From: an uncultured Anaeroplasmataceae bacterium
GTDB lineage: Bacteria; Bacillota_I; Bacilli_A; Acholeplasmatales; Anaeroplasmataceae
Reading direction: 5' to 3'
NCBI GenBank assembly: GCA_944325695.1
Contig: CALVBA010000012.1
Span: 1 to 36,479, forward strand
DNA length: 36,479 nt
Made by a program: the position numbers and the translations under genes
Shown: in pieces, positions 196-19,686 of the stretch
Position numbering within the stretch: the stretch's first letter is position 1
Layout of the letters: each line of letters begins with the position of its first letter
Notes under the pieces: generated by a model
What the model was told of the DNA's origin: nothing
What the model saw: the letters and a program-made list of their open reading frames with translations, nothing else
Database searches by the model: none

Positions 196-1491
196 ATGAT
201 ATCAAAAGCTAGGTATATTGAAAATACTGAATCTTTAACAGAGGATTTACCGTTAATCAAATATGAAAATCCGGATTATATCTATTTAGCATTGACAAAC
301 GCTCGATGCAATAAAGGGGAAGTTTATGTTAAAGAAGGAGATTATGTCAAGATAGGACAAGTAATAGGAATCAGAAAGTCTTCTTTTTTTGAGCAAAATA
401 TTCATTCAACGGTTAGTGGAACAGTTGAAGGAATTGTTAAGAAGTTTCATCGTACAGGAAAATTACTTGATTTTATTAAAATTAAAAACGATAAATTAGC
501 TATTTATGATGAATCGATTAAAGATCGTACAGATGATGAAATAGCTCGCTTAACAAAAGATGATTTTACGAAAATTGTTAAGGATTGTTCGATTGTTGGA
601 TTAGGAGGAAGTTCATTTCCAACTTATGTTAAATTTGCTTCAGATGATCCGATTGATACTATTTTAATCAATGGAGTAGAGTGTGAACCATTATTGACTA
701 GTGATCAACGTTTAATGCTGGAATATCCTGACCGTATTATGAAAGGTATTGAGTATACATTGCAGGCTTTTAAAGCTAAAAGAGCTGTTATTGCGATTAA
801 ACATAAATATCAAAAAGTTTTTGAAGTGTTACAAGAAGCACAAAAACGTTATCCAAAATTAAATATTGAAATTAAACGTGTTGGGGATTATTATCCTCAA
901 GGTTGGGAAATTGAGTTAATTAAAAGTGCATTAAATGTAAAAATACCTGTAGGCGAATTACCATCTAAATTTGGAATTATTACCTTTAACGTTTCAACAA
1001 TTGTTGGAATTTACCGTGCTGTAAAACATAATAGTCCGGTTTTAATGCGTAATTTTACTGTAAGTGGTGATGGAATAAAAACTCCAGCTAATTTCCGCGT
1101 TCGTATCGGAACACCAGTTATGGACTTAATTGAGAAATGTGGTGGATATGAAGGTGATCAAAACAAGGTATTTATTATGGGTGGACCAATGATGGGGGCT
1201 AACCTTGTTAAAGATGATGCCATTATTACTAAAACTTGTACATCAGTAATTGTTTTACAAGAAAAAAATTACGTTGAAGAACCATGTGTTCGTTGTGGAT
1301 CATGCGTATATTCATGTCCAGTTGGTATTCAACCTGTGCAAATTATGAATGCGTATAAAATGAAAGATCAAAAAGCATTAAATGGGTTAGATGTGAATCG
1401 TTGTATTGGATGTGGGTTATGTACATATGCTTGTACTTCAAAAATTGATGTAAAAGATTATGTTCGACGTGCAAAAATGTTAATCAAGTAA
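196..1491 (+). CDS. rnfC: Rnf electron transport complex subunit C (RnfC)
   Basis: Peripheral, cytoplasm-facing Rnf subunit that exchanges electrons with NADH and passes them on through Fe-S centres. The N-terminal 100 residues look like the RnfC barrel-sandwich domain. The flavin/NADH-binding 51-kDa-like domain follows, with G137-G-S-S-F-P at the usual glycine-rich loop and the NGVECEP motif. An SLBB-like stretch comes next. The C-terminus has two 4Fe-4S motifs, C364-x2-C367-x2-C370-x3-C374 and C403-x2-C406-x2-C409-x3-C413. The 431-aa length fits the family. The ATG is preceded by GAGGTG at a good distance. It is the first gene of a tightly packed operon. Confidence 0.96.
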   Translation: MISKARYIENTESLTEDLPLIKYENPDYIYLALTNARCNKGEVYVKEGDYVKIGQVIGIRKSSFFEQNIHSTVSGTVEGIVKKFHRTGKLLDFIKIKNDKLAIYDESIKDRTDDEIARLTKDDFTKIVKDCSIVGLGGSSFPTYVKFASDDPIDTILINGVECEPLLTSDQRLMLEYPDRIMKGIEYTLQAFKAKRAVIAIKHKYQKVFEVLQEAQKRYPKLNIEIKRVGDYYPQGWEIELIKSALNVKIPVGELPSKFGIITFNVSTIVGIYRAVKHNSPVLMRNFTVSGDGIKTPANFRVRIGTPVMDLIEKCGGYEGDQNKVFIMGGPMMGANLVKDDAIITKTCTSVIVLQEKNYVEEPCVRCGSCVYSCPVGIQPVQIMNAYKMKDQKALNGLDVNRCIGCGLCTYACTSKIDVKDYVRRAKMLIK

Positions 1492-1507
1492 AAGGAGAGT
1501 AAATAAT

Positions 1508-2614
1508 ATGAAATTAGTCCGAAAAACTAGTCCTTATTTACGTAGAAAAGCTGATGTTTCACGGATGATGTTAGATGTTTTAATAGCGTTAACACCTATT
1601 GTGATTTTTTCGCTTTATTATTTTGGTTTAGGGGCTTTAAAGGTTATTTTAACTTCAGTAATTACAATGGTAATTTGTGAAGCATTGTTTGTAGCTTTAG
1701 TAAATATTCCTGAAAAAAAAGAAAATGAAAGAAGTTTTATTCGTCTATTTTCTAAAGAAAATCTACGAATAATGTTTAAAAATTATCGAAAAACTAATTT
1801 GTTATCATCATTAGTTAGTGCAATTATTTATGCAATGATTATGCCAGCTGGTTGTTCTATTTTTGTTTTAGTTATTGGAGCATTAGCTGGAATTGTATTA
1901 GGTAAATTAGTTTTTGGTGGATTAGGATCAAACATTTTCAATCCAGCTGCAGTTGGACGTATTTTTGTAATGGCATGTGGATTTCCAATTGTCGCAACAA
2001 ATGTTGACGCTACTACTGGAGCGACACCTCTACAAGATTTAAAAAATGTTATTGATGGTGTTTCAACACAATACAGTAGTATTAATGATTTTTTAAGCAA
2101 TACTAATTATTCTTTATCAGAATTATTTTTAGGAACTGTTCCAGGAGCAATTGGTGAGGTAAGCTGTCTATTAATTTTAATTGGAGCAATTTATTTGTTT
2201 GTACGCCGAAGTGCTGATTTCCGTGCAACACTAGCTTGCTTAGGTGGATTTATTTTTGTGAATTTTTTTGCAGCGCTTGCTTTAAATGCTAATATTGTGC
2301 AATTTATTTTATTTAATCTTTTGGCTGGTGGAATTTTATTTGCAGCTGTTTTTATGGTAACAGATCCAATTACATCACCGGTTACGGGTCGTGGGCGAAT
2401 CGTATATGGAATGTTAGTTGGAATTATTGCTTCATTTATTCGTTTATTTGGAGCATATCCAGAAGGTGCAGCTTTTGCGATTTTAATTATGAATATGTTA
2501 GTACCAGTAATTGACTATTATAGATGGTCAAATACAAAATATACACCAAAATACTTTGCTTTTGTAGCAATATGTTTAGCATTAACAGCTACATTAGTAT
2601 TTGTTGGATTATAG
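1508..2614 (+). CDS. rnfD: Rnf complex subunit D (RnfD), flavinylated membrane subunit
   Basis: Integral membrane subunit of the NqrB/RnfD family and part of the ion-translocating core. The sequence is mostly hydrophobic helices. The motif T170-G-A-T173 is the site where this family carries covalent FMN on the last Thr, attached by ApbE; T173 is the likely residue. The GLGSNIFNPAAVGR and TDPITSPVTG segments are family hallmarks. The 368-aa length is normal, and the start is preceded by AAGGAGAG. It lies 16 nt after rnfC and is followed at once by rnfG, whose ribosome binding site overlaps the rnfD stop. Confidence 0.96.
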   Translation: MKLVRKTSPYLRRKADVSRMMLDVLIALTPIVIFSLYYFGLGALKVILTSVITMVICEALFVALVNIPEKKENERSFIRLFSKENLRIMFKNYRKTNLLSSLVSAIIYAMIMPAGCSIFVLVIGALAGIVLGKLVFGGLGSNIFNPAAVGRIFVMACGFPIVATNVDATTGATPLQDLKNVIDGVSTQYSSINDFLSNTNYSLSELFLGTVPGAIGEVSCLLILIGAIYLFVRRSADFRATLACLGGFIFVNFFAALALNANIVQFILFNLLAGGILFAAVFMVTDPITSPVTGRGRIVYGMLVGIIASFIRLFGAYPEGAAFAILIMNMLVPVIDYYRWSNTKYTPKYFAFVAICLALTATLVFVGL

Positions 2615-2624
2615 GAGGGAGATT

Positions 2625-4433
2625 ATGAAGAATAATTTCATTATTGCCTTAAAATTATTTGTAATTACGGCACTTAGTGCTTGTTTAATCGCTATTACCA
2701 ATTACTTTACTGCACCAATTATTCAGGCTAATAAAGATAAAGTAGCATATGCTGCATATATTGAAATTTTTGAAGATTTTAATAGTGTTAATTCTAAATT
2801 TAAAACTTATGATGATGGTGTAATTTATCAAGAGATTGAAGTTTATGACGCTAATAATTCATTAGTAGGATTTTTATATAGTGGTCGTAAAACCAATAGT
2901 TTTGGAACAATCGATTTAATTGTTGGTATAAACCCTGATGGGACTTTAAAAGAAGTTGTAACCGTGGAAGTAAGTCAAACAAAAGGTGGAGTTGATGATC
3001 ATATTAATAATGCTTATCAATCAGGTATGACGCAAACTGATATTGAAAACATTGATACTAAAAATGGTGTTACAGTAGGATCGAATACGGCTAAAGATAT
3101 CGTTTTAAGCGCTTATCAAATGTTTACTGGTGATTTTACTGATTATGTTAAAGAAGCTAGTGATAAATTATTTGGTAATATTTCAGGGTATGATTATTCA
3201 AAAACAATTACTAAAAAAGTTAATTACCAAGAAGATAAATTTAAAGTAAATACGATCTACACAATTATGAATAATAACAATATTGTAATTGGGTATATGT
3301 ATGATGCTTTTATTGATAATTCGTCACAATATTCAACTGCCAGTTTACAAGCATATGTTGGAATCGATTTAGATGGTAAATTGGTTGATATGGTTGAAAT
3401 TGAATATATTCAATCTTACGCTGAACAATTTAAAGACTATTTAAATAATCACCCTATTGCCGGTAAAACCGAAGAAGAAATCGCTAATATGGATGTTACT
3501 AATAGTGGTGTTACAGGTACTTTAACAGCGATGAAAGAAATGCTTGCAAAAGTTTTTGTATATCACGAAAATAATTCACAATATCGTATGTTATTTCCTG
3601 AGTACGATGCGTCTAATTCGACAAGAAAAGAGTATTCAGAAGAAATTATTTATCAAGAAATTACTGTTCGTGATGAAAACAATCAATTATTAGGATATAT
3701 TTATAACGGACGAAAAGATGTTTATAGTGCTTCTGGAAAAAAATTTGGTTATATTGATTTGATGGTTGGAGTTAATATTGATTTAACAATTAAAGAAGTT
3801 TTAATTAATGATATTTCACAAACAAAAGATGGTGTTGATGAGCACGTCAATAACGCTTATGCACCTGGTATGACACAAGATGATGTTGATAAAGTTGATA
3901 CATCTAATGGTGTAACATATGGTTCTAATGTTGCTAAAGAAATTGTTAAAGAAGCATTAAATAAACGTCAAAAAAATGCATTAGATACATTATTTACTGC
4001 AAATTATAGCTTTGATAATACAGTAGTTGAACAAGTTAATTATAAAGACGATAAGTTCCAAGTAAATTATAAATATATCGTAAAAGATGATAGTGGTAAT
4101 ATAATTGGTTATATGTATGATGTTTTTATTGATAATTCATCACAATATTCTAAAGCAAGCTTACAAGCATATGTTGGAATTGATTTAAATGGTAGTATTA
4201 TTGATATGTTAGAAATCAATTATGTTCAATCATATGCAACGCAATTTAAAGAATATTTAGACAAACATTCTATCGCTTCTAAAACCGAAGAAGAAATCGC
4301 TAATATGGATATTACTAATAGTGGTGTTACAGGTACTTTAACAGCGATGAAAGAAATGCTTGCTAAAACATTTAACTATCACAATACTAATCAAGGAGTT
4401 ATTAGTTTTAAGGGGGTAGATTTAAATGACTAA
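2625..4433 (+). CDS. rnfG: Rnf complex subunit G (RnfG), enlarged, with four FMN-binding-like modules
   Basis: RnfG is anchored by one N-terminal helix and exposes an FMN-binding domain outside the membrane, where ApbE attaches FMN to a Thr in an [S/T]-G-A-[S/T] motif. The usual length is about 200 aa; this one has 602. After a typical anchor (residues 5-28) the protein is an A1-B1-A2-B2 array, two copies of a roughly 272-residue unit. Each module ends in a flavin-site-like motif: NGVT (T150), SGVT (T297), NGVT (T431) and SGVT (T569). All four have Val in place of Ala. B1 and B2 keep the following Gly-Thr, whereas A1 and A2 have V/Y-Gly-Ser. The ATG at 2625 follows AGGAGGG; an in-frame TTG at 2601 lies inside rnfD and has no ribosome binding site. 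Whether all four sites bind FMN is inference. Confidence 0.9.
   Translation: MKNNFIIALKLFVITALSACLIAITNYFTAPIIQANKDKVAYAAYIEIFEDFNSVNSKFKTYDDGVIYQEIEVYDANNSLVGFLYSGRKTNSFGTIDLIVGINPDGTLKEVVTVEVSQTKGGVDDHINNAYQSGMTQTDIENIDTKNGVTVGSNTAKDIVLSAYQMFTGDFTDYVKEASDKLFGNISGYDYSKTITKKVNYQEDKFKVNTIYTIMNNNNIVIGYMYDAFIDNSSQYSTASLQAYVGIDLDGKLVDMVEIEYIQSYAEQFKDYLNNHPIAGKTEEEIANMDVTNSGVTGTLTAMKEMLAKVFVYHENNSQYRMLFPEYDASNSTRKEYSEEIIYQEITVRDENNQLLGYIYNGRKDVYSASGKKFGYIDLMVGVNIDLTIKEVLINDISQTKDGVDEHVNNAYAPGMTQDDVDKVDTSNGVTYGSNVAKEIVKEALNKRQKNALDTLFTANYSFDNTVVEQVNYKDDKFQVNYKYIVKDDSGNIIGYMYDVFIDNSSQYSKASLQAYVGIDLNGSIIDMLEINYVQSYATQFKEYLDKHSIASKTEEEIANMDITNSGVTGTLTAMKEMLAKTFNYHNTNQGVISFKGVDLND
3464..3547 (+). repeat. 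Intragenic 84-nt near-identical repeat, copy 1 (rnfG B1 module)
   Basis: Identical to 4280-4363 except for one base (G to A at the second-last Asp-[V/I] codon region). It covers the K-T-E-E-E-I-A to A-M-K-E-M-L segment around the flavin-site-like Thr. The offset is 816 nt, exactly 272 codons. Confidence 0.9.
4280..4363 (+). repeat. Intragenic 84-nt near-identical repeat, copy 2 (rnfG B2 module)
   Basis: Second copy of the 3464-3547 repeat, one mismatch in 84 nt. The flanking module sequence is clearly more diverged than this core, which suggests recent gene conversion or strong selection at the DNA level. Confidence 0.9.
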
Positions 4434-5058
4434 AAAAGAAAATTTTCTAAAAGGGTTCGTTAAAGAAAATCCAATCTTTGTGTTTTTACTAGGGATGTGT
4501 CCATCTTTAGCAACGACAACGAGTTTAGAATCCGCTTTTGGAATGGGACTTTTAGTTTTATTTGTTTTAATTGGATCTAACTGTTTGATATCACTTTTAA
4601 AAAATTTTATTCCAAATGAAATTCGTATTCCGGCTTATATTGTTATTATCGCAACGTTTGTAACAATCATTAAAATGTTATGTGATGCTTTTGCTCCGGC
4701 ATTAGCTAATTCATTAGGAGTATTTATTTCTCTAATCGTAGTAAACTGTATTATCTTAGGACGTGCTGAAGCATTTGCTAGCAAAAATAATGTCTTAGAT
4801 TCATTTATTGATGCGATTAGTATGGGATTAGGATTTACAATGTCGTTAATGATTATCGGATTATTCCGTGAATTATTAGGAACAGGCGCAATAGCTTTTG
4901 GTAAATATTTACCAATCGGAGTGTCAGGAAGTATTCAATTATGGCCTAGTTATGCCATCCCATTATTTGTTCAATCTCCAGGAGCATTCTTTGTATTAGG
5001 AATTATTTTAGCTATTATTGAAGTTTTTAAAAATGTTAAAGGTGGTGCTACGAAATGA
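4426..5058 (+). CDS. rnfE: Rnf complex subunit E (RnfE)
   Basis: One of the two homologous membrane subunits (RnfA and RnfE, NqrD/NqrE-type) that form the inverted core of the pump and share an intramembrane Fe-S centre. Here the L-x-V-N-C-I-I-L-G-R-A-E-A segment holds the conserved Cys facing the membrane. It has about six hydrophobic helices and 210 aa, normal for the family. The ATG at 4426 overlaps the rnfG end by 8 nt and follows an AAGGGGG ribosome binding site inside rnfG, so translation is probably coupled. Confidence 0.95.
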   Translation: MTKKENFLKGFVKENPIFVFLLGMCPSLATTTSLESAFGMGLLVLFVLIGSNCLISLLKNFIPNEIRIPAYIVIIATFVTIIKMLCDAFAPALANSLGVFISLIVVNCIILGRAEAFASKNNVLDSFIDAISMGLGFTMSLMIIGLFRELLGTGAIAFGKYLPIGVSGSIQLWPSYAIPLFVQSPGAFFVLGIILAIIEVFKNVKGGATK

Positions 5059-5639
5059 CAATTCAAACATTTTTAGTTTCTTTATTCAGTGCAATGTTAA
5101 TAAATAACGTTATTCTATCGCGTTTTTATGGAATTTGTCCGTTTTTAGGAGTATCGAAAAAAATTGATAGTGCCATTGGTATGGGAGCTGCCGTTTTCTT
5201 TGTTATGTTACTTGCTACTTTATTGACATACCCACTATATCATTACGTATTATCACCATTAAACATCCCATTTATGGATACTATTTCCTTTATTTTAGTT
5301 ATCGCTTCAATCGTACAATTAGTTGAAATGATTATTAAAAAATATAGCGCTTCACTTTATAAATCGCTTGGAGTATTCTTACCTTTAATCACAACTAACT
5401 GTGCTGTATTAGGGGTAGCCCAAGGAAATATTAATTCCGGATATGGCTTTTTAGAATCATTAAGTAATACAATTGGTACATCATTAGGATTTGCTATTAT
5501 CTTATTTATGTTCTCATGTATTCGTACTAGATTAGAATCATCGAATGTACCTAAAGCTTTTAAAGGAGCACCGATTGCTTTAATTACTGCGGGTTTAATG
5601 GCCTTAGCTTTCATGGGATTATCAGGATTATTAGGATAG
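5055..5639 (+). CDS. rnfA: Rnf complex subunit A (RnfA)
   Basis: Membrane subunit homologous to RnfE in opposite topology. The hallmarks are N-N-V-I-L-S-R-F-Y-G-I-C-P-F-L-G-V near the N-terminus, with a conserved Cys, and the T-T-N-C-A-V-L-G-V-A segment in the middle. Together with RnfE these Cys residues are known to hold a membrane 2Fe-2S centre. It is 194 aa with six predicted helices. The start overlaps rnfE by 4 nt (ATGA). Confidence 0.95.
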   Translation: MTIQTFLVSLFSAMLINNVILSRFYGICPFLGVSKKIDSAIGMGAAVFFVMLLATLLTYPLYHYVLSPLNIPFMDTISFILVIASIVQLVEMIIKKYSASLYKSLGVFLPLITTNCAVLGVAQGNINSGYGFLESLSNTIGTSLGFAIILFMFSCIRTRLESSNVPKAFKGAPIALITAGLMALAFMGLSGLLG

Positions 5640-5640
5640 T

Positions 5641-5826
5641 ATGGAACAATTAATCGGTTTTATTGTTATTGTTGCAATGATCTTGCTATATTTTGGACTT
5701 TACTATCTAAATAAAAAAACCCCACTACCTAAAGGTTGTGAGAATTTAGTTAATAGTGAAAAATGTCAATCATGTAGTAACATTACATGTCAATTCCATA
5801 AGGAAGGGGATAGAAAAGATGATTAG
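5641..5826 (+). CDS. Small membrane protein with a four-Cys motif, inside the rnf operon
   Basis: 61 aa: one N-terminal transmembrane helix (about residues 4-23), then a short tail with C33-x8-C42-x2-C45-x4-C50 and H53. The four Cys could bind an Fe-S cluster or zinc. It sits 1 nt after rnfA, and its stop overlaps the start of rnfB by 8 nt, so it is made with the Rnf complex. I do not recognise a family. The layout (single helix plus small Cys tail) resembles FeoB-associated Cys-rich proteins, but the context argues for an Rnf accessory protein. It may replace or deliver one of the redox centres missing from the short RnfB; that is inference. Confidence 0.75.
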   Translation: MEQLIGFIVIVAMILLYFGLYYLNKKTPLPKGCENLVNSEKCQSCSNITCQFHKEGDRKDD

Positions 5827-6139
5827 TGTATTATATGCTTTCTTAGTGTTAGGAGCTTTCGGGTTATTATTTGGATTTGGGCTAGCATTAGCATCTAAAT
5901 TCTTTCATGTTGAAGTGGATACAAGAGTAGAAGATATCACTAAAATGCTTCCAAATTATAATTGTGGAGCTTGTGGAAATCCTGGATGTGCTGGGTTTGC
6001 TGAAAAAATCGTTAGCGGAGAAGCAGAACACTTATCTGCTTGTAAACCAGGTAATGTTGAAAAACATTTTAATCCGATTTTACAATATTTAAAAGACCAT
6101 CCGAATGCAGATGGTTCAATAAATAAAATAAAAATTTAG
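5819..6139 (+). CDS. rnfB: Short RnfB: membrane anchor plus single 4Fe-4S domain, no ferredoxin domains
   Basis: RnfB is the subunit thought to receive electrons from ferredoxin. Full-length members (about 260 aa or more) have an N-terminal helix, a 4Fe-4S domain of the PF04060 type and then ferredoxin-like domains with further clusters. This protein is 106 aa. It keeps the helix (residues 3-26) and the first Fe-S domain (C49-x2-C52-x4-C57-x17-C75, in N-C-G-A-C-G-N-P-G-C), then ends 31 residues later. A terminator follows at once and no CxxCxxC coding remains downstream, so this is not a frameshift. The ATG at 5819 follows AAGGAAGGGG; an upstream in-frame extension lies within the previous gene. 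Confidence 0.9.
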   Translation: MISVLYAFLVLGAFGLLFGFGLALASKFFHVEVDTRVEDITKMLPNYNCGACGNPGCAGFAEKIVSGEAEHLSACKPGNVEKHFNPILQYLKDHPNADGSINKIKI

Positions 6140-6189: not shown

Positions 6190-8235
6190 GTGATTGAGTT
6201 AATTAATGTTTCTAAGTACTATTCAACCAATGATAGAGCAACTTTAGGATTAAAAAACATTAATGTAAAATTTGATATTGGTGAAATTGTCGCAATTACT
6301 GGGAAAAGTGGGTGTGGTAAATCAACTTTATTAAATGTCATTTGTGGAATGGATACATATGAATTAGGAAGAATGATAATAGATGATAAAGACACTTCTA
6401 GTTTTTCTATAGAAGATTTTGAGGACTATCGTCGGAATAATGTCGCGTTTATCTTTCAAAATTATCAATTAATTGATAGTTATACTGTATATCAAAACGT
6501 TATGATGGCTTTGATTATTAGTAACTATAAAGGCGATATTAAAAAGCGTTGTTTAGAATTAATCGAAGAAGTTGGTCTTAGTCATCGTATTAATAATAAA
6601 GCTACAAAATTAAGTGGTGGAGAAAAACAACGTGTGGCAATTGCAAGGGCTTTGGCAAGCGATGCAAAAATCTTAGCTTGTGATGAACCAACCGGAAATC
6701 TAGATTCAAAGACAAGTAATGAAATTATTTCCTTAATAAAAAAAGTGAGTAAAGATAAATTAGTATTAATTGTAACGCACGATTATGAGGAAGTAAAAGA
6801 TATTGTAACACGAAAGATACGTCTTTTTGATGGTAGTATTGTTGAAGATACTAAGATTAATCCCCTTGAAGAAATCAAAGATAATCAACCTCTAAACAAA
6901 GGTCAATTAACCTTTAAGCAAGTTTTAAAGTTAGCACTTACTAATATTTTTTCAACACCAAAAAAATTAATTCTCATTACTATAACATTATTTATCTTTC
7001 TTATGGCAATCGATTTTATAATCGGAAATATTTCCAATCCGATACAATATTATTATAATCATTCCATGGCTAATTTTCAGTTTAGCGAAAATCGGCTTTT
7101 AGTTAGTAAAAAAGATGATTTAGTGGACATTCAAGAACTGAAATTTGGAAATAACACAGTAATAAAAAATGATTTTGTTTATGATCAGTATATTAGATTT
7201 AGTTATAGTAATTATCAATACATGGCCAACTTTTCAGTTCCCAATGTTAATAAAAAAGTAGTTTATGGAGATCTTCCACAAAAACATTATGATGTGGTAT
7301 TAGAAGTTCCGCAAAATATGATTAATAATTTTAAAGATGCTACTGGAAAAACGATTAATATCTCAGGAAATGAAAAAGAATATACAATTTCTGGTATTGC
7401 TATTGCTGATTCTTTTAAAATAATGCCATATGATGCTGACGATCTTTATGAAATATTTTACAGAGAAATATTATTATATGACGATGCCTTTTATAATGTT
7501 ATAGTTTCTAATAAACAATTATCGATTCAGTATAATTATTTTGATGAAAAAGATAAATTTATGGTTCCTAATATTTTTCAAGATGAAAATATATATATTG
7601 AGTATGGTGGGAAAAAGATTTTAATCCAAAAAGAGGACATTGAATATTATGAAGTAGAAACAGATGATGATTTTTATTTCATGGAAATACCGAAAAAAAA
7701 TGTTGATTTGCTTAAAAAATATTTTTTAGACAATATTTTTCAAGCTAGTGTTATTTATGAAGATGGTACATATGACGAAACAGTTAACACTTTAAAAAGC
7801 TTAGGGTATCGTGTTGTTGATGTAGAAAAAATATTAATCAGTAGGGGTAATATTTATAATTATTTTATTTTGTTTATTGCCTTTTTATTTATGCTAATGA
7901 TAGTTTATTTTGTTACAGCAGTCATTTTAACATTTATTATGCGAACTAAACAGAAAGATTATGCTATTTTGCGCACTTTTGGTCTTTCAAATAAAGATTC
8001 TAGAAAGATTTTAACCGTGGAATTTTTGGTGGTTGAAGCTATAACAATCATATTATTTATTATTTATTTTATTATTTTTCATTCGAATAAAGTTTCTTTA
8101 TTTATTGATATAACAGCTGGAAGATTTTTCTTTGATTTCATAATTTATTCAAGCTTAATTTTATTATTAGTATCTAAATTTAATAAAAAGATTTTTGTAA
8201 ACACAATTAATAAAGGATTAAAGAAAGGGGAATAA
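6190..8235 (+). CDS. ABC exporter, ATPase-FtsX-type permease fusion, type A (copy 1)
   Basis: A 681-aa fusion of a LolD/MacB-type ATPase with an FtsX-like permease. The ATPase (1-225) has Walker A G38-K-S-G-C-G-K-S-T, signature L141-S-G-G-E-K-Q-R, Walker B I161-L-A-C-D-E-P and H197. The permease has one helix near 258-279, an external loop of about 280 residues, then three C-terminal helices (about 555-670) around an R-T-F-G-L motif. The start is GTG at 6190 after AAAGGATGTG. The substrate is unknown; this class moves peptides, lipids or lipoproteins by mechanotransmission. It shares both domain types with the gene at 10322, which makes it the A member of an A/B pair. No promoter fits between the upstream terminator and this gene. 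No two-component system is nearby, unlike Bce-type peptide-resistance exporters. Confidence 0.9.
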   Translation: MIELINVSKYYSTNDRATLGLKNINVKFDIGEIVAITGKSGCGKSTLLNVICGMDTYELGRMIIDDKDTSSFSIEDFEDYRRNNVAFIFQNYQLIDSYTVYQNVMMALIISNYKGDIKKRCLELIEEVGLSHRINNKATKLSGGEKQRVAIARALASDAKILACDEPTGNLDSKTSNEIISLIKKVSKDKLVLIVTHDYEEVKDIVTRKIRLFDGSIVEDTKINPLEEIKDNQPLNKGQLTFKQVLKLALTNIFSTPKKLILITITLFIFLMAIDFIIGNISNPIQYYYNHSMANFQFSENRLLVSKKDDLVDIQELKFGNNTVIKNDFVYDQYIRFSYSNYQYMANFSVPNVNKKVVYGDLPQKHYDVVLEVPQNMINNFKDATGKTINISGNEKEYTISGIAIADSFKIMPYDADDLYEIFYREILLYDDAFYNVIVSNKQLSIQYNYFDEKDKFMVPNIFQDENIYIEYGGKKILIQKEDIEYYEVETDDDFYFMEIPKKNVDLLKKYFLDNIFQASVIYEDGTYDETVNTLKSLGYRVVDVEKILISRGNIYNYFILFIAFLFMLMIVYFVTAVILTFIMRTKQKDYAILRTFGLSNKDSRKILTVEFLVVEAITIILFIIYFIIFHSNKVSLFIDITAGRFFFDFIIYSSLILLLVSKFNKKIFVNTINKGLKKGE

Positions 8236-8237
8236 AG

Positions 8238-10310
8238 ATGATTCAAATACAAAATGCCTACAAAAAGTATAAAAAAGGTAAAAATATTGTTCATGCAATT
8301 AATGATACATCAATAGTATTCCCTGATCGTGGATTAGTAAGCATTGTTGGAAAAAGTGGAAGTGGAAAGACATCTTTTTTAAATTATATCGGTGGATTAG
8401 ATAAAGCCAAAGGGTTAATCAATTACGATGGAAAAGTCTTTAAAGATTATCAAATGGATCAAATAGATCATTTTCGTAATATATATTTTGGTTATATTTT
8501 TCAAAACTATTTATTATTGCCAAGTAAAACAGTATATGAAAATCTAGAAATTCAACTTAATTTAATCGGGATATACGACCATGAAGAAATAAATAAGAGA
8601 ATTGATTACTGTTTAGGATTAGTTGACATGTTGGATTATAAACGACGTAATTGTGCTAGTTTAAGTGGAGGACAACAACAACGCATTGCAATTGCGCGCG
8701 CTTTAATTAAAAATGCCCAATGCCTAATTTGTGATGAACCAACAGGTAATTTGGATAGTAAAAATACTGAAGACATTATGCGGATATTAAAATCTATTTC
8801 TAAAAATAAACTAGTTCTGTTAGTAACGCATGATTTAGACATGGCCAATCTTTATTCTGATCGAATTATATTAATAAGTGACGGAAAAATTAACGATATT
8901 AAGGAAAATAATACCGAAAATAATACAACATTAGATAAACATAACTTTTACTTACAAGAATATAATAAAGAAACTTTTATAACTGGAAATATAAAAATTA
9001 ATTTATATAGTAAAGAAAAAGGAACACCTAAAGAAATCAAATTAATTCAAACAGCTAATAAACTATATCTTTCAATCGGAGCACAAAAAAACTTTGAGAT
9101 CATTGATAGTAAAAGTAATAAAGAATTCATCGATAGCAAACAAGAATTTCAGCTAGTGGATAAAATAGCACATTTTGATAGCAGTAAGTTTAAAAAAGTT
9201 GAAACAAAAAAAACTAAATTTTCGTTGATCAAAGAGGTAAAACAATTTTTTAACGTTTCAAGAGGATTAAAATTTATTTATTTATTACTAATTTTCTTTG
9301 GAATGCTTCTAGCTAGTAATATGCAATCAATGGAAAAAAATATCAAATCATTTTATAATATTAATAATTATGAAAATCGTTATGTTTTAGAAAACGGCAT
9401 ATCTTCAGAATTAATTGAACAAATGTATCGCGATGGATTAATAAGTGGATTTGAACAAGGAAATTTATGGTCATACTTAGAATATCAAGTTGCACCACAA
9501 ATTTTATCTAATGTTAGTTCGCAAGTTGCTTATTATGATCAATCACTAAAATTAGTATGTGGAAAAGCCCCCCTTAATCAAGGTGAAATCATAATATCTA
9601 AAAATATCATTGATGAATACAATATGATTTTTAATTTTGATTATGTAGATTATCTAGATACTACGATTTACTTAAATAGTGATTTTTTGGATAAAGCATT
9701 TCTTAAAACTTCATTTAAAATTGTGGGAATTAGCGATACAAATAATCAATACTGTTATATGAATAAGGAAGATCTTGATTATTTAATTGATTATGCAGAT
9801 AATTTTTTCCAATATTTAAGTTTTAATAAACAATTAATAGTTCATTCGACTAATTCAGAATTATTAAATTCGCCTTATTTACAAGGAAATATCTATGATA
9901 TTACGCAAAAAAGTAATTGGGAAGAAGTTAAACTTAATATTATATTAAGTAGTATTTGGCTTTTAATTTGTATCCTTTTTAGTTATTTTATTTTACGAAG
10001 CAAGATGACCTTAGAAATATATGATATTGGTGTTAAACGTGCTATTGGAGCTAATCGCTTATATATTTTAAAAGAATACCTATTAAAAACTTGTGTGTTA
10101 GCTTTTATGACAGTGATTGTTGGATATGTCATTTATAACGCCTTTATTTTATATGTTAATAATTCTTTAGGATTATTTGATTTCAGTTTTTTAGGATTCT
10201 TTACAGGATTAATATTGATTGTTTTATTTATGATTATTTTAGGATTAATTCCAATTATTTCATTGCTTAGAAAAACACCAATTGAAATCTTAAATAAATA
10301 TGATATGTAG
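8238..10310 (+). CDS. ABC exporter, ATPase-FtsX-type permease fusion, type B (copy 1)
   Basis: 690 aa, starting 2 nt after the previous gene with an AAAGGGG ribosome binding site. The ATPase domain has GKSGSGKTS, LSGGQQQR (Q-Q-Q where the type A proteins have E-K-Q) and LICDEPTG. About 110 residues then separate it from the first helix (near 344-362); this insert is largely beta-prone and charged and is absent from the type A genes. An external loop of about 200 residues is followed by three C-terminal helices (568-675). The chain ends in L-L-R-K-T-P-I-E-I-L-N-K-Y-D-M, the classic FtsX/MacB tail. It probably forms a heterodimer with the type A neighbour. The substrate is unknown. Confidence 0.9.
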   Translation: MIQIQNAYKKYKKGKNIVHAINDTSIVFPDRGLVSIVGKSGSGKTSFLNYIGGLDKAKGLINYDGKVFKDYQMDQIDHFRNIYFGYIFQNYLLLPSKTVYENLEIQLNLIGIYDHEEINKRIDYCLGLVDMLDYKRRNCASLSGGQQQRIAIARALIKNAQCLICDEPTGNLDSKNTEDIMRILKSISKNKLVLLVTHDLDMANLYSDRIILISDGKINDIKENNTENNTTLDKHNFYLQEYNKETFITGNIKINLYSKEKGTPKEIKLIQTANKLYLSIGAQKNFEIIDSKSNKEFIDSKQEFQLVDKIAHFDSSKFKKVETKKTKFSLIKEVKQFFNVSRGLKFIYLLLIFFGMLLASNMQSMEKNIKSFYNINNYENRYVLENGISSELIEQMYRDGLISGFEQGNLWSYLEYQVAPQILSNVSSQVAYYDQSLKLVCGKAPLNQGEIIISKNIIDEYNMIFNFDYVDYLDTTIYLNSDFLDKAFLKTSFKIVGISDTNNQYCYMNKEDLDYLIDYADNFFQYLSFNKQLIVHSTNSELLNSPYLQGNIYDITQKSNWEEVKLNIILSSIWLLICILFSYFILRSKMTLEIYDIGVKRAIGANRLYILKEYLLKTCVLAFMTVIVGYVIYNAFILYVNNSLGLFDFSFLGFFTGLILIVLFMIILGLIPIISLLRKTPIEILNKYDM

Positions 10311-10321
10311 GAGGGGATAAG

Positions 10322-12430
10322 ATGATTAAAATACGCAATTTAACTAAATTTTATAACCAAGGAAAAAATATTTCATTAGCCCTTTCTAATATCGATTTAG
10401 ATTTGTGTTCAAATGAGATAGTAGTTATAACAGGACCATCAGGATCTGGGAAGACCACTTTATTAAATGTAATATGTGCTTATGATAGTTTTGATGAAGG
10501 AAAAATTGAAATTGATGGTGTCGATTATAATAGTATGACATTACAAGAACTACAAAATTATCGTAATAAACATATTGGATTTATTTTTCAAAATTATAAT
10601 TTATTAGATAGTTATACTGTTTATCAAAATGTAATGATTAGTTTAGAATTATCGGGATATGATGTGGATAAACGTCATCATAGATGTTTAGAATTAATTG
10701 AAAAAGTAGGTTTAAGTCATCGTATAAAACATAAGGCTACAAAATTAAGCGGTGGAGAAAAACAACGCTTAGTTATCGCTAGAGCTTTGGCACTAGATTG
10801 TGATATTTTAGCTTGTGATGAACCAACAGGGAATTTAGATTCTAAGACAGCTTTGGAGATTGTTGAGTTAATAAAAAAAGTTAGTAAAGATAAGTTGGTT
10901 TTAATTGTAACTCATGATTATGATCAATTCAGACCAATCGCAACTCGTCATATTGAAGTTTTAGATGGAGAGATAACACTTGATGATAAAATACCAAATG
11001 ATTCTAATAATGATATTTTAAAAGTGAAAAAAGAAGTAAAATTCGGATTAAAAGAAATCATTAAAATAGCTTTTCGTGATCTTTTATCACAACCGAAAAA
11101 ATTTGTTTTTGGCTTATTAATTTTTTTATTTTTAACATTTCAATTTGCATCATCTTTTTTAAACATAGATTTTTTGATTAGTGATCAAATAACAAGTTAT
11201 TATCCTTATAATTATATTTCTGAAAGAAGAGTTATTGTCTATGACAAAAATAAAAAAGTTTTAGATAAAAAAGCTTTAGAGGACATTAAAGATACCAAGG
11301 TGTTTTATAATAATTTAACTATTGATAATGGTGTTTTATTATCTTTTGAAGATGATTTGAACAATGATTTACCAAACAATGTTTTTGTAGATATTGCTTG
11401 GAAAAATAAAGATATTGAGATTAAAGGTCGCTTACCTGAAAAGGATAATGAAATCGTATTATACTATAATTCATTATATTATCAAATTGATGATAAGATT
11501 TTTGAAAAATCGTTAACAATCAATGATATTTCATATAGTGTTGTGGGATATGGAAGTATAGATAATAATTTATTAAGTTCAGACACTTATATTTATGGAA
11601 CAGACCAAATGATGTATCAACTAATTGAAATAAATCAAAAATATGACCACGAAATGTTTAATTATACCTTTTTACTAAATGGAAAAACAATTTATGCTAA
11701 AAATGGTGAAAAAAATACTTTATGGGGAATTCCATTAGATGAAGTAAATGATTTAAAGATGATGATTAATGGTTTTGAGTTTTCTTTAGATAAAACTAAT
11801 TTTAATACGGAAAATACATCAGAAAATGCTACTATTTCCCTTACTTTTACAAGTGATTTATTTGATAAAGTGATGAAAGAAAATGTTTATGAAGCTTCAT
11901 TATTATTAGATAATGCTAATGATAAACAAGTATTTAAAGCATTAGAAGATTTGGGATATGAATATATTGTTTCAACGGATTTTTTATATGAAAATGATGA
12001 TACAAAAGCTCTTGTCGTATTTACTAATTTGATAAGTACAGTTAGTTTAGTGTTTAATTTTGGTCTTTATTTTGTGTTGGGATATGCTGTATATACTCTA
12101 GCATTAAAATCAAAGAAAAAGGATTATACATTGTTACATACATTAGGTCTTAGTTACAAAAAGGTGCGTCTTTTAATATTTATTCAAGCAATTATTCAAA
12201 TGACTTTATCTTTTATTTTGTGTTTTATAATTGCTTTAATCTTGAATAATACATTGCATAATGATATGAAACTAGTAATTGATTTATTATTTGTGGATTT
12301 TGTTAATTTTAATGTTGTAAATATCATAAAAATTTATGGTGTATTATTATTATTGGCTATTTTAATTGCCTCAAAATTTAGCAAAAAAATGTTAAATACA
12401 ACAGTCGCAACTAATTTAAGAAGGGAGTAG
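10322..12430 (+). CDS. ABC exporter, ATPase-FtsX-type permease fusion, type A (copy 2)
   Basis: 702 aa, paralogous to the gene at 6190. The stretch from C-L-E-L-I-E to L-S-G-G-E-K-Q-R is almost the same in both, as are the Walker B region and the K-K-V-S-K-D-K-L-V-L-I-V-T-H motif. Walker A is GPSGSGKTT. The first helix lies near 261-282, the external loop is about 300 residues, and three helices close the protein. Like the other type A gene, it ends in a basic Ser-Lys-Phe...Lys-Lys tail rather than the L-L-R-K-T-P motif. The loop has diverged far more than the ATPase, which suggests a different ligand. The ribosome binding site is GGAGGGG. Confidence 0.9.
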   Translation: MIKIRNLTKFYNQGKNISLALSNIDLDLCSNEIVVITGPSGSGKTTLLNVICAYDSFDEGKIEIDGVDYNSMTLQELQNYRNKHIGFIFQNYNLLDSYTVYQNVMISLELSGYDVDKRHHRCLELIEKVGLSHRIKHKATKLSGGEKQRLVIARALALDCDILACDEPTGNLDSKTALEIVELIKKVSKDKLVLIVTHDYDQFRPIATRHIEVLDGEITLDDKIPNDSNNDILKVKKEVKFGLKEIIKIAFRDLLSQPKKFVFGLLIFLFLTFQFASSFLNIDFLISDQITSYYPYNYISERRVIVYDKNKKVLDKKALEDIKDTKVFYNNLTIDNGVLLSFEDDLNNDLPNNVFVDIAWKNKDIEIKGRLPEKDNEIVLYYNSLYYQIDDKIFEKSLTINDISYSVVGYGSIDNNLLSSDTYIYGTDQMMYQLIEINQKYDHEMFNYTFLLNGKTIYAKNGEKNTLWGIPLDEVNDLKMMINGFEFSLDKTNFNTENTSENATISLTFTSDLFDKVMKENVYEASLLLDNANDKQVFKALEDLGYEYIVSTDFLYENDDTKALVVFTNLISTVSLVFNFGLYFVLGYAVYTLALKSKKKDYTLLHTLGLSYKKVRLLIFIQAIIQMTLSFILCFIIALILNNTLHNDMKLVIDLLFVDFVNFNVVNIIKIYGVLLLLAILIASKFSKKMLNTTVATNLRRE

Positions 12431-12436
12431 ATTAAG

Positions 12437-15022
12437 ATGATTAAAGTTTCAAATTTAAACAAACAATATGGGTTTAAAAACAATAAATTTAATGTCATCA
12501 ATAATACTTCTTTTACCTTAGATAGCACTGGATTAGTGTGTTTAGTTGGTGATTCAGGAAGTGGAAAGACGACTTTATTAAATGTTATTAGTGGAATTGA
12601 TAAGTCCTCTGGTATTATTAGTTATGATGGGGTTGAATTTAGTAAATATGATGCTAATAAGATTGATGAATTTCGTTTAGAAAAAATTGGTTATGTTTTT
12701 CAAAATTATTATCTATTACCTGGTAGAACGGTTTATGACAATCTTAAATTAGTATTAAATTTTATGAAAATAATTGATGAAAAAGAGATTAATAAACGTA
12801 TTAGTTATGCCTTAGGCTTAGTCGGGATGGAACAATATAAATATCGTAATGTTGAAATGCTAAGTGGTGGGCAACAACAGCGTGTAGCTATAGCTCGTGC
12901 TTTAGTTAAAAATGCTGATATTTTAGTGTGTGATGAACCAACTGGAAATTTAGATAGTAAAAACTCAATTGAAGTTATGAATGTTTTAAAAGCCATTTCT
13001 AAAGAAAGATTAGTTTTATTAGTTACTCATGATAAGGATATGGCATATTATTATGCAACTCGGATTATAGAAATAAAAGATGGTTGTATTATCAAAGATG
13101 AGCCAAATTTATTAGAAGGAAAGGATCTTTCATTTACTGATGGAAATATTTATTTAAAAGACTATCAAGAAGAAAAATTAAATGTTGAAAATCTACAATT
13201 TGATATTTATAAACATCATGAATTTACCATTAATTTAGATATTTTATATGAAGATGGAAAGTATTATTTAAATGTTAAAAATCAAAATTTAGAGGTTTTA
13301 AATCATAATAGTGAAGTTAAAATTATCGATGATAGTGTTCAAAATATTGATTTCTTTAAAGAAAAAGAGTTACATTTTGAAACTTTTTCCAACATTAAAA
13401 AATCTAACTTTATTAATTCTATAAAAAGTAGTTTTTCTCAGTCATTTAAAAGTTTTTTTCAAGTTCGTAATCGTCAAAAATTTCTGTACATAAGTTTTAT
13501 TGCCTTGGGATTTGTGTTAGCTCTTTTTGTTTTTATGACTGCTTCATTTTATAAAGAATACTCTAACGAGATTGGTAATTATGGAAATGCGATAGCTGTT
13601 AAAAACAGTGATATGGATAGTTTAAATAGTGTTGATGTTGCTAATTATCACATTACTACTTCTGCTAATGTTTCCATTTCTAAAACATTCTTACAATCGA
13701 CTAATGGTTATGATTCAAATTGGGAAAAATTTTTCTTTAATCGAGATGAAGGAATAGCTAATTTTTATGATTGTTATATATCAAAGAGTTATGCTGATTC
13801 TTTTATTAGTAAATATAGGGCATATTATAAATCTACAAACGATTTAGTTGGTGAGAAAGTTAAAGTATTAATTAATTCTAATGAATATGAATTAAATATT
13901 ATTGGAATAAATAATTCTTCTTATAATTTATTAACCGTTAGTAAAGATTTTTATAATTTAATGACTTTCTCTGCACGTGCGATTACTAGTTTTGATATTA
14001 ATGATTATGAGGCTAATGTAAATTACCTTCCTGAAGATTTTGATGCCAGCAAACATATTGTGGAAAAGATTGAAAACTTTTCTTTTGGAAATGAATATTG
14101 TCTAGTTGAAGTTAATTCCCCTTACAAAATTGGAGAGTATATTGAGACTTCTTTTGGAAGATTACTTGTTACAGGAATACATAATTATCCTAATTTAGGA
14201 ATAATTAACACAACACAACCTATATATATAGAAGGTAGTAACGCCATGTCAAATTATTTAGTATTGCCATATATTAATAAAGAAGATGTTCGTTTAATAG
14301 AAGGACGACTACCACAAAACGCTAATGAAATTTTAATATTTAAAAATAAATTATATGTTAATTTAGAATTAAATAAAGCATATGAAATCAATGGTAAAAA
14401 ATATTTAATTGTCGGGATTATAGATGATTATACTAAAAATAAATCACCATTTTTATTAGTCAACGATGGAAATTTCTATCGTGAAACACCGATTAATTAT
14501 TTTGGAACTTATATTGATGATGATTATTATTATATTGTTGATTTTGTTAATCAAGAACAAGCCTTAAAAGTATTAAATAGTCAAGGAGTTAGAACATATC
14601 AAGTTAAAGATTTAATATTTAATGATTTTATCGTTTCTAATATTGTACTTATTTTAGCGATTATCTTCATTATTTTATTCTTTGCTATTTATACATTATT
14701 GATTATGCGAAGTAAAATGCTTTCTAAGATATATACAATTGGTGTTTATCGGAGCTTAGGAGCAAAGAAAAATGTTATTTATCAAGATTTTATTACAGAT
14801 ATTATTATTACCACGACATTAACATCGATTTTAGGATATCTTATCGCATCATATTTATTTAATATTTTGGCATCTATTTTTCCATTATTTATCGTAAACT
14901 TCACAACTGTTATAACTGGATGTATTTTAATTTACATTTTTAATTTATTATTTGGATTATTACCGATTTATACTTTATTAAGAAAAACACCGGCGGAGAT
15001 TTTATCTAAATATGATATTTAA
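12437..15022 (+). CDS. ABC exporter, ATPase-FtsX-type permease fusion, type B (copy 2)
   Basis: 861 aa, the longest of the four. It is paralogous to the gene at 8238, sharing L-S-G-G-Q-Q-Q-R, C-D-E-P-T-G-N-L-D-S-K-N, the roughly 110-residue insert before the first helix (near 350-372) and the L-L-R-K-T-P-A-E-I-L-S-K-Y-D-I tail. Its external loop is about 360 residues, against about 200 in the first copy, so it has gained or kept an extra extracytoplasmic part. Three C-terminal helices begin near residue 732. It overlaps the following apbE gene by 11 nt, which suggests translational coupling. The substrate is unknown. Confidence 0.9.
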   Translation: MIKVSNLNKQYGFKNNKFNVINNTSFTLDSTGLVCLVGDSGSGKTTLLNVISGIDKSSGIISYDGVEFSKYDANKIDEFRLEKIGYVFQNYYLLPGRTVYDNLKLVLNFMKIIDEKEINKRISYALGLVGMEQYKYRNVEMLSGGQQQRVAIARALVKNADILVCDEPTGNLDSKNSIEVMNVLKAISKERLVLLVTHDKDMAYYYATRIIEIKDGCIIKDEPNLLEGKDLSFTDGNIYLKDYQEEKLNVENLQFDIYKHHEFTINLDILYEDGKYYLNVKNQNLEVLNHNSEVKIIDDSVQNIDFFKEKELHFETFSNIKKSNFINSIKSSFSQSFKSFFQVRNRQKFLYISFIALGFVLALFVFMTASFYKEYSNEIGNYGNAIAVKNSDMDSLNSVDVANYHITTSANVSISKTFLQSTNGYDSNWEKFFFNRDEGIANFYDCYISKSYADSFISKYRAYYKSTNDLVGEKVKVLINSNEYELNIIGINNSSYNLLTVSKDFYNLMTFSARAITSFDINDYEANVNYLPEDFDASKHIVEKIENFSFGNEYCLVEVNSPYKIGEYIETSFGRLLVTGIHNYPNLGIINTTQPIYIEGSNAMSNYLVLPYINKEDVRLIEGRLPQNANEILIFKNKLYVNLELNKAYEINGKKYLIVGIIDDYTKNKSPFLLVNDGNFYRETPINYFGTYIDDDYYYIVDFVNQEQALKVLNSQGVRTYQVKDLIFNDFIVSNIVLILAIIFIILFFAIYTLLIMRSKMLSKIYTIGVYRSLGAKKNVIYQDFITDIIITTTLTSILGYLIASYLFNILASIFPLFIVNFTTVITGCILIYIFNLLFGLLPIYTLLRKTPAEILSKYDI

Positions 15023-16860: not shown

Positions 16861-16939
16861 AAAAAGAAGATATATTAATAAATTTCCCCCATAAAAACAC
16901 TTATGGGGGATTAGTTTATTTTTAATTATCTTCTTTTTT
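16861..16939. terminator. Nested bidirectional terminator between gx and the aspartase-like gene
   Basis: The inner hairpin is CCCCCATAA/TTATGGGGG (16886-16909). The outer arms AAAAAGAAGATA (16861-16872) and TATCTTCTTTTT (16927-16938) pair perfectly over 12 bp and give a U-rich end on either strand. It serves the two convergent transcripts. Confidence 0.8.
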
Positions 16940-16945
16940 ATATTA

Positions 16946-18343
16946 TTATTTAACTTTAGTAAAACGTTTAGCTATATGAGTGGCGTTTAAATATTTATCA
17001 ACATCTTTTTCGCTCATTATTTTTTCTTCTAAGATAATTTCTTTGATTGTTTTATTTGTTTTAAATGCGATATTAGCAATATTTTCACATGCTTCAACTC
17101 CTAGTTCAGGGACAAGTAAAGAAATGATTCCTAAGCTATTATTGACGTGTTTTAGACATGTTTCTTTATTGATAATTAAGTTTTCAATCGTTGATTCTCT
17201 AAATAGTTTAATCGCTCGAGTTAAATATTCGATTGAATCAAATAAATTAGGATAGATAATTGGTCCAAAAACATTAAATTCTAATTGTCCATGTTCCGCG
17301 GCATATGTTATAGTAGTATCCTTACCAATAATTTGAAAACAAACTTGGTTAATTACTTCAGGAATAACCGGATTTACTTGATCTTTTAAGAAAGTCTCAC
17401 TTACCTCAACCCGAGGAATAGTAATCTCATTAAATCCTGCTCGTGGACCACTGGCCATTAAACGCAAATCTGAAGCTGTTTTTGATAAGTTAATAGCAGC
17501 TATTTTAATTGCATGACTAACGTTGACAAAAGAGTCAAAATTTCTTGTTAAGTCTAAAAGATTACGTGGATGACTAAAAGTCATTTTAGTATACTCATTA
17601 AACCGGTTAATAATATTTTTAAAGTATATAGGATTAGTGAATTCCCCTGTTCCATCATTATTAACCCCTAAATTAACATAATATAAATCTTTTAATGATT
17701 CTTCTAGCCGATAGTAATCACGTTCAATACAGCTAGCAATAGCTCCAAACTCAACCCCAAAAGTAATTGGTGTGGAATCTTGTAAGTGCATTCGTCCAAT
17801 TTTTGGAACACTAGCATATTCTTTAGCCTTATCTAAAAAACTTTTAAACAGTTTTTTTATCTCTACTAATAAACCTTTAGCTAAAATGATTGTAGTAAGT
17901 TTTCCTGCTGTTGGCACCACATCAATAGAAGATTGATTTAAGTTGACGTGTTTTAGTGGGTGAATATATTCGTATGTCCCTAAATTTCCACCTAAAAGTT
18001 CATTAGCTCTATTGGCAATAACTTCATTGATATTCATATTCATTGATGCTCCTGCTCCACCTTGAATGGCATCAGTGATAAATTGATTTTGAAATCTTCC
18101 ATTTATAATCTCGTCACAAGCATTAGCTATAGCCTTAGCTTGATCTAGTGTTAATAGATTGGCATCTTTATTAGCTAAAGCTGCCGTTTTCTTGACAATC
18201 GCTAATGATTTTATCATTTGTTTATGAATTTTTTCTTTGGCAACACAGAAGTTTTCTTTGCTTCGTAGTGTCATTATGCCATAATAAGCATCTAGTGGAA
18301 TTTTCATTTCCCCAAGTTCATCTTTTTCGATTCGATACTTCAT
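16946..18343 (-). CDS. Aspartase/fumarase-fold protein with a degenerate active site
   Basis: 465 aa, colinear with aspartate ammonia-lyase over its whole length (QGGAG..MNMN.NE..AN, HVN..QS, GR.HLQD, SGPRAG.NEI, VNPVIPEV.NQV). The catalytic positions are mostly changed. By Bacillus AspB numbering as I recall it, T101 is A99, T141 is S139, N142 is I140, T187 is M185, S318 is E316 and K324 is Q322; S138, H186 and N324 remain. The GSSxMPxKxN signature loop reads S315-E-T-F-L-K-D-Q-V-N. The frame is intact and the rest well conserved, so this is not simple decay. It may be inactive or have another substrate. It is monocistronic with its own promoter and an AGGTGG ribosome binding site. Confidence 0.85.
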   Translation of the reverse strand: MKYRIEKDELGEMKIPLDAYYGIMTLRSKENFCVAKEKIHKQMIKSLAIVKKTAALANKDANLLTLDQAKAIANACDEIINGRFQNQFITDAIQGGAGASMNMNINEVIANRANELLGGNLGTYEYIHPLKHVNLNQSSIDVVPTAGKLTTIILAKGLLVEIKKLFKSFLDKAKEYASVPKIGRMHLQDSTPITFGVEFGAIASCIERDYYRLEESLKDLYYVNLGVNNDGTGEFTNPIYFKNIINRFNEYTKMTFSHPRNLLDLTRNFDSFVNVSHAIKIAAINLSKTASDLRLMASGPRAGFNEITIPRVEVSETFLKDQVNPVIPEVINQVCFQIIGKDTTITYAAEHGQLEFNVFGPIIYPNLFDSIEYLTRAIKLFRESTIENLIINKETCLKHVNNSLGIISLLVPELGVEACENIANIAFKTNKTIKEIILEEKIMSEKDVDKYLNATHIAKRFTKVK

Positions 18344-18366
18344 TTAACCACCTCATGTTTGATTAT

Positions 18367-18394
18367 ATTATACATTAATTAGCCATTTTTTCAA
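18367..18394 (-). promoter_or_regulatory. Promoter of the aspartase-like gene
   Basis: On the minus strand: TTGAAA (18394-18389), 16-nt spacer, TATAAT (18372-18367) with TG directly before it. An overlapping second TATAAT lies at 18367-18362. Confidence 0.7.
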
Positions 18395-18447: not shown

Positions 18448-19686
18448 ATGATTTTAGAAATCAATGGAAATAAAAAATTAAAAGGTGAAATAAAAATTTG
18501 TGGAGCTAAAAACAGCAGTATTCCGTGCTTAATAGCGAGTTTATTGTCACCTAAACCTGTAAAATTATATAATATACCATTAATTTCTGATATTAATGTT
18601 GTTTTAAATATTTTACAAGAAATTAACGTTAAAGTAGATAATAATTTAGAATATTTTTTGATTGATCAAAGCCAATTAAAGTATGTTAGTTTAAAAATAG
18701 ATGAAATTAAACGACTAAGAGCGTCATATTATTTTATGGGGGTATTTTTAGCTTTATTTTCCCAAGTAGAAATTTATTATCCTGGAGGTTGTGCTTTTGA
18801 AGATCGACCAATTGATTTTCACTTAAATGGTTTTAAAACTTATGGAGCAGAATATGAAGCATGCGATAAAGTAATTAAAATTTACCGTAAAAAAAATCTT
18901 AGTGGTAAATTCATCTTACCCAAAAAATCAGTTGGAGCTACAATTAATTTATTATTAAGCTTTGCAACAAGTAAAGAAATGTGTATTATTGAAAATGCCT
19001 CAACAGAACCTGAGGTAAAAGATGTATTAAAATTGTTGCAAAAAATGGGATATCAGTACTTTATTACTGAAAAAGAAATTATTTACAATGGATATGTTAT
19101 AATAAATGATGTGGTTAGCCATCATGTTATTAGTGATCGTATAGTAGCTTTAAGTTATATTTATTTGGCTCTTGCTTTAGGTGAGATAAAAATTATAGGC
19201 GACTTTTATCCATTAATCAAAGAAGAGATAATAAATTTGAAAAACAAGAAAGCCGATATTACCATTTTCGATGATGGTCTTTTGGTAAAGATATCAAAAC
19301 TAGATAATTTTAATGTGATTGCCGATGTATATCCACATTTTCCAACTGACTTAATACAAGTTATATCGCCACTTTTAACGCAAACTAATACTTCTTATCT
19401 AGAAGATCGCATTTTTGATAAACGTATTGAAACAATTCTTGATTTAAAATTATTTAAAGCTAATGTTGCTTTATATGGTAAAAAAGTAGTTTTTAATCGC
19501 TCTGAATTAGTAAAAGCAAATACAGAAGCTAAAGACTTACGTCATTCTTTTATGCTTGTTTTTGCAGCATTAATGGCTAAAGGTACTAGTTTTATAAAAA
19601 ATGGGGAATATCTTTTACGAGGATATCCTAATATTATTAATGACTTAAAAAAACTGGGAGCTAATATTAAAATAAAAAACTCGTAA
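18448..19686 (+). CDS. murA: UDP-N-acetylglucosamine 1-carboxyvinyltransferase (MurA)
   Basis: Transfers enolpyruvate from PEP to UDP-GlcNAc, the first committed step of peptidoglycan synthesis (EC 2.5.1.7). The G-A-K-N motif (K21) near the N-terminus, L-R-A-S-Y-Y, P-G-G-C115, F-P-T-D and the C-terminal L-R-H-S are the substrate and catalytic positions, and all are kept. C115, the target of fosfomycin in the family, matches the E. coli number. The loop after it reads A-F-E-D-R-P-I-D instead of the usual A-I-G-S-R-P-I-D, so this is a divergent member. The length of 412 aa is typical. The short AGGTG ribosome binding site lies 5 nt before the ATG. It stands alone and converges on a small unknown gene. 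Confidence 0.9.
   Translation: MILEINGNKKLKGEIKICGAKNSSIPCLIASLLSPKPVKLYNIPLISDINVVLNILQEINVKVDNNLEYFLIDQSQLKYVSLKIDEIKRLRASYYFMGVFLALFSQVEIYYPGGCAFEDRPIDFHLNGFKTYGAEYEACDKVIKIYRKKNLSGKFILPKKSVGATINLLLSFATSKEMCIIENASTEPEVKDVLKLLQKMGYQYFITEKEIIYNGYVIINDVVSHHVISDRIVALSYIYLALALGEIKIIGDFYPLIKEEIINLKNKKADITIFDDGLLVKISKLDNFNVIADVYPHFPTDLIQVISPLLTQTNTSYLEDRIFDKRIETILDLKLFKANVALYGKKVVFNRSELVKANTEAKDLRHSFMLVFAALMAKGTSFIKNGEYLLRGYPNIINDLKKLGANIKIKNS

Follow-up and report, generated by a model that had tools for sequence, protein, structure and literature searches.

The window, by which we mean the whole stretch of 36,479 nucleotides analysed, belongs to a genome (G000) of 1.34 Mb that is 97% complete. 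An aspartase-like gene, P0001, lies on its minus strand, divergent from murA. The features of this locus are given below, with replacements named against the aspartase AspB; f1 (the window), f9, f12, f16, f19 and f22 are codes for families or groups of relatives.

16885..16910, either strand: terminator hairpin, readable in both directions
16946..18343, minus strand: aspartase-like gene P0001, catalytic residues lost, 465 aa, ATG start
17372..17401, minus strand: former SS catalytic loop, codons 315-324, SETFLKDQVN (GSSIMPGKVN in AspB)
17789..17791, minus strand: codon 185, Met for Thr187
17849..17878, minus strand: helix with K156, K163 and K164 of a clade-specific basic set, codons 156-165
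17924..17926, minus strand: codon 140, Ile for Asn142
17969..18343, minus strand: N-terminal domain, codons 1-125, unusually conserved in P0001 and the f9/f19 proteins
18047..18049, minus strand: codon 99, Ala for Thr101
18348..18353, minus strand: Shine-Dalgarno-like AGGTGG, read from the sequence
18367..18394, minus strand: sigma-70-like promoter TTGAAA-16-TATAAT, 11 of 12 positions matching
18448..19686, plus strand: murA (UDP-GlcNAc 1-carboxyvinyltransferase, NCBIfam), divergent neighbour of the P0001 gene

The reading frame, promoter and terminator had been described as intact in the original prediction, and this holds: the ORF is whole, and the promoter-like site, the Shine-Dalgarno sequence and the hairpin are all present. 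Elsewhere in the window, genes for Rnf-type electron transport occupy positions 196-6139; RnfC was confirmed by NCBIfam, and D, G, E, A and B were recognised by reading. Four large ABC transporter genes (6190-15022) and ApbE come next. The 574-aa protein at 23185-24909 matches PEP carboxykinase only weakly (E 4e-8, over residues 230-435) and may be a kinase of the HPr-kinase/PEPCK fold. Besides murA, G000 encodes six Mur_ligase_M proteins; many genomes of the same family and order gave no murA match, and two of these that were tested, G005 and G044, have only one Mur ligase each. G000 appears to have a cell wall in a group where some members lack one.

P0001 fits the fumarase-aspartase superfamily over its full length, both by profiles and in the AF2 model (pLDDT 88, pTM 0.88), whose best PDB match is the AspB variant 8RJ0 (TM 0.94). 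It shares about 43-44% identity with aspartate ammonia-lyase (AspA/AspB; PDB 1J3U, 3R6V) and scores above the cut-off of NF008909 for this enzyme (532.6 vs 510 bits), so automatic annotation will name it an aspartase. On the other hand, it remains under the equivalog cut-off of TIGR00839 (488 vs 681 bits) and under those for class II fumarase (TIGR00979, 390 vs 665 bits), ArgH (TIGR00838, 48 vs 280 bits) and PurB (TIGR00928, 38 vs 326 bits). The model has low confidence (pLDDT <50) mainly in two internal stretches: residues 318-321, in what was the SS loop, and residues 301-303, at the SGPxxG turn.

The alignment of P0001 (3-454) with AspB of Bacillus sp. YM55-1 (1J3U, 5-456) covers 452 residues (E=2e-120) and is gapless at a constant offset of 2, as had been proposed. 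The five replacements claimed for the active site (T101 to A99, N142 to I140, T187 to M185, S318 to E316 and K324 to Q322) are all real, and so is the change of the loop from GSSIMPGKVN to SETFLKDQVN. Further changes are T141 to S139, A192 to S190, Q199 to V197, T230/A231 to NN, P322 to K320 and N343 to K341. In AspB, catalysis depends on the SS loop with Ser318, the alpha-carboxylate is bound by Thr187, Met321, Lys324 and Asn326, and His188 and Asn142 contact the carboxylate and the amine (PMC11744663). P0001 resembles aspartate ammonia-lyase in the gapless alignment and the predicted fold, but it lacks the GSSxMPxKxN signature, the catalytic serine and four more substrate contacts; from the set T101, N142, T187, H188, K324 and N326 only the equivalents of H188 and N326 are retained, as H186 and N324. 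A compensated frameshift was discarded, since GSSxMPxK is read in no other frame, and the exchange of serine for glutamate (codon GAG) requires at least two base changes.

We compared P0001 with 27 canonical aspartases, which share 91 invariant columns, and found 17 of them changed; in leave-one-out comparisons, each canonical aspartase shows 0-6 changes at columns invariant in all others. The changes in P0001 affect 8 of 11 motif sites vs 9 of 80 other invariant sites (Fisher p=3.5e-5) and a single one of the 29 invariant sites of the N-terminal part, and none of the 27 canonical relatives has an active-site replacement of this kind. With changes concentrated at the active site and the N-terminus spared, the pattern is unlike uniform decay. 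Judged by its sequence, P0001 is a pseudoenzyme in the sense that catalytic residues invariant in the family are missing.

These replacements could also be those of an enzyme acting on another substrate, M185 and Q322 replacing the alpha-carboxylate clamp and E316 serving as base instead of the serine. The retention of H186 and N324 and the intact ORF and fold agree with this possibility, as do the engineered AspB acrylate hydroaminases (8RJ0, 8RJ1; PMC11744663), where positions 187 and 324 are changed as in P0001 and activity is kept despite an altered Thr187/Lys324/Asn326 pocket. However, Ser318 and the other loop residues are retained in those active variants, unlike in P0001, whereas N326 is changed in them and kept in P0001. 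T101, N142, T230/A231 and the Gly and Pro of the loop are also gone in P0001, the former loop is a low-confidence region of its model, and the parallel cases in f19 dropped the loop entirely. We consider such an enzyme unlikely, and the earlier idea of re-purposing for a new substrate specifically is not supported.

In G000, we found no second aspartase, FumC or ArgH and no class I fumarase; the only other Lyase_1 protein has 431 aa and is probably PurB. A second, normal aspA had been suggested as a check, and its absence from this genome counts toward the reading of lost catalysis and re-purposing. A homologue of P0001 was present in 1 of 160 genomes of the order, that of the window itself, and a broader profile applied to the order members of the class sample gave the same result. 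In the class sample, 69 of 395 genomes match P0001 at 1e-30. A search with an N-terminal consensus query added nothing, and no genome of the same genus was among the relatives searched. The loop of P0001 was not found in any homologue from the 160 order genomes, the 395 class genomes, GTDB contigs or IMG/VR, the last two scans detecting only places with short exact peptides in common with P0001. Canonical motifs are kept in f12, f16, f22, Fusobacteriaceae, Clostridia and Aerococcaceae. Since the loop decays in other forms in other lineages, E316 and Q322 look specific to the lineage of P0001.

This restricted distribution raises the possibility that P0001 is a once-useful aspartase now losing its function, in a lineage whose relatives no longer have the gene. 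The absence of the gene from all other genomes of the order is consistent with ongoing decay, and so are the long terminal branch of P0001 (0.88) and the lack of class I fumarase and FumC in G000, which breaks the route from aspartate to malate. A split aspartase is also known elsewhere in the class: L099 of f16 (G181:C2:393333-394669) is divided into two reading frames, apparently by true decay or by an assembly error, in contrast with the f19 proteins. Nevertheless, P0001 has neither stops nor indels over the 452 aligned residues, the signals for its expression and termination are intact, and the changes avoid the N-terminal sites and concentrate at the active site, which makes decay a rather unlikely explanation.

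In the phylogenetic tree, f9 and f19 form one clade (support 100/99), with P0001 outside it near the base, a placement that is not firm (84/39). A single shared loss for P0001 and the truncated f19 proteins was rejected by the AU test (p-AU 0.0012), and the loop states need a minimum of four changes on the tree. P0001, L080 of f9 and the truncated f19 clade show strict loss of the serine at Ser318, so that catalysis would have been lost independently at least three times. The aspA-like gene is divergent from murA in the window, in 5 of 6 f9 genera and in several f19 genera. The order in f12 and f16 is fumarase-malic enzyme-aspA, and malic enzyme-aspA' is found in some f9 and f19 members (neighbours were named by reading their translations, the murA of the window being confirmed by NCBIfam). 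The common divergent murA and the catabolic synteny point to vertical descent, the ancestor at class level having had a set of genes for aspartate catabolism. A gene for an M55/DppA-like D-aminopeptidase, recognised by reading, is often beside the aspartase-like gene (L060, L061, L062, L054 and f19 loci).

The repeated vicinity of murA might suggest that P0001 is a regulator or partner of MurA in cell-wall synthesis. Yet in f19, the genomes G256, G196, G185 and G303, which have at most one Mur ligase and are presumably wall-less, keep the pseudo-aspartase with murA not adjacent. The persistence of the gene there disfavours this partnership for f9 and f19, and we regard it as very unlikely. Control of an active lyase paralog by an inactive subunit in mixed tetramers, a common mode of action in pseudoenzymes, would have a possible partner in the 431-aa protein of G000. 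Ten f9/f19 genomes (e.g. G196, G206, G391), however, encode no further Lyase_1 protein, which disfavours an active-paralog partnership in these families and makes this the least credible explanation, an extremely improbable one.

Families f9 and f19 present a graded series. In f9, GSSxMPGKxN is mostly kept and SGPxxG is altered; L054-L066 are full-length, with the SS loop mostly intact and the SGPxxG turn altered or deleted, and may have changed specificity or lower activity. In f19, some genera retain S318 and K324 without SGPxxG; most have truncated proteins, and the complete copies from eight genera have 363-376 aa and lack both the SS loop and the C-terminal domain (in a ninth truncated genus, g165, the copy is cut by the contig end). 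The gene is found as a single copy in all 10 near-complete f9 genomes and in 14 of 14 near-complete f19 genomes, in one of them as a fragment. Within genera, truncated f19 copies show dN/dS of 0.05-0.29, similar to glyA, for pairs with measurable dS (it is saturated in genus g141). Divergence in their first 125 residues is around two- to fourfold lower than in the remainder of the protein, and canonical aspartase pairs show no such bias. Against canonicals, which have a ratio of N-terminal to remaining divergence of 1.05 among themselves (0.93-1.18 per sequence), P0001 has 0.79 and the truncated f19 proteins have 0.58-0.72. The N-terminal shift of P0001 is the constraint signature of these putative pseudo-aspartases. 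Counting against a common role, P0001 lacks H85, G86, K157 and R375, which are invariant in f9 and f19. Purifying selection is clear for the f9 and f19 homologs and is indicated only indirectly for P0001.

Compared with outgroup aspartases, the f9 and f19 proteins have turned basic at 16 positions and lost basic residues at 2. At these 16 sites, outgroups have 0-5 basic residues, f12 and f16 8-12, P0001 11 and f9/f19 13-16, considering that the sites were picked for conservation in f9/f19 and that the ancestry shared with P0001 contributes to its count. Nearly all of the 31 f9/f19 proteins have the series KRRHKKKKRRR at eleven K/R/H positions, and the basic sites on two bundle helices face away from the hydrophobic side. 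We infer that these sites form a putative surface for an anionic ligand, either a nucleic acid or an acidic protein, older than the loss of catalysis; they could instead serve as oligomerisation contacts. Since the basic set is common to P0001, f9/f19 and the nearest active relatives, binding may have arisen on an active enzyme and later displaced catalysis.

Avian delta-crystallin, of the same superfamily, is likewise an enzyme with a second, structural role. The delta-I form is inactive. Delta-crystallin is an argininosuccinate lyase recruited as a lens protein (PMC10211241); it is eukaryotic and from the argininosuccinate lyase branch, whereas P0001 is bacterial and from the aspartase branch. 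AspA of epidemic Yersinia pestis, described through a citation of Viola 2008 in PMC4209828 as catalytically inactive by a missense change, is like P0001 a full-length aspartase, but that case involves one recent change within a species, in contrast with the remodelled active site and long-term retention of P0001. The bacterial fumarase of the DNA damage response (PMC5711358) was set aside as a poor model, its function seeming to depend on catalysis, with L-malic acid named in the title of the paper. An integrative crosslinking model, PDB 9A75, pairs AspA with EF-Ts, which is a lead towards a role of aspartase beyond catalysis; AspA is not discussed in the paper examined for this entry. Within the collection searched, we found no paper naming both aspartase and pseudoenzyme.

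We suggest, with moderate confidence, that P0001 is a pseudo-aspartase, an orthologue of aspartate ammonia-lyase inherited within the class, which would have the fold of the enzyme without aspartase chemistry and be kept for non-enzymatic binding. The original view of a protein that lost catalysis, kept its fold and was re-purposed agrees with the lack of a second aspartase, the structural match, the focus of changes on the active site and the parallel losses in f9 and f19 proteins under strong purifying selection; the new function would be binding. In the course of events that we propose, the ancestor of f12, f16, f1, f9 and f19 would have had an active aspartase in a gene set leading from aspartate through fumarate and malate to pyruvate. 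This enzyme would have acquired basic residues on its surface together with a second role, in binding; after aspartate catabolism ceased to be needed, the catalytic loop could have been lost separately in f19, within f9 and in the lineage of P0001. The binding role, probably carried by the N-terminal domain and by the two bundle helices that bear basic residues specific to the clade, would have preserved the rest of the protein. More tentatively, a surface binding polyanions or proteins may have displaced catalysis at least three times in the class, with the active aspartases of f12 and f16 being still bifunctional, a possibility that we consider less probable than its opposite.

Misannotation of P0001 as an aspartase would wrongly place this enzyme in metabolic models of the window genome. 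If the proposal is true, f9, f19 and the window lineage hold a conserved family of pseudo-aspartases, a rare example of pseudoenzymes with several origins, preserved intermediates and still-active relatives bearing the same candidate surface. The f12 and f16 proteins (active by motif), the partly altered f9, the loop-less and truncated f19 and the separately inactivated P0001 would then be a series in which to ask whether the second function came before the loss of catalysis.
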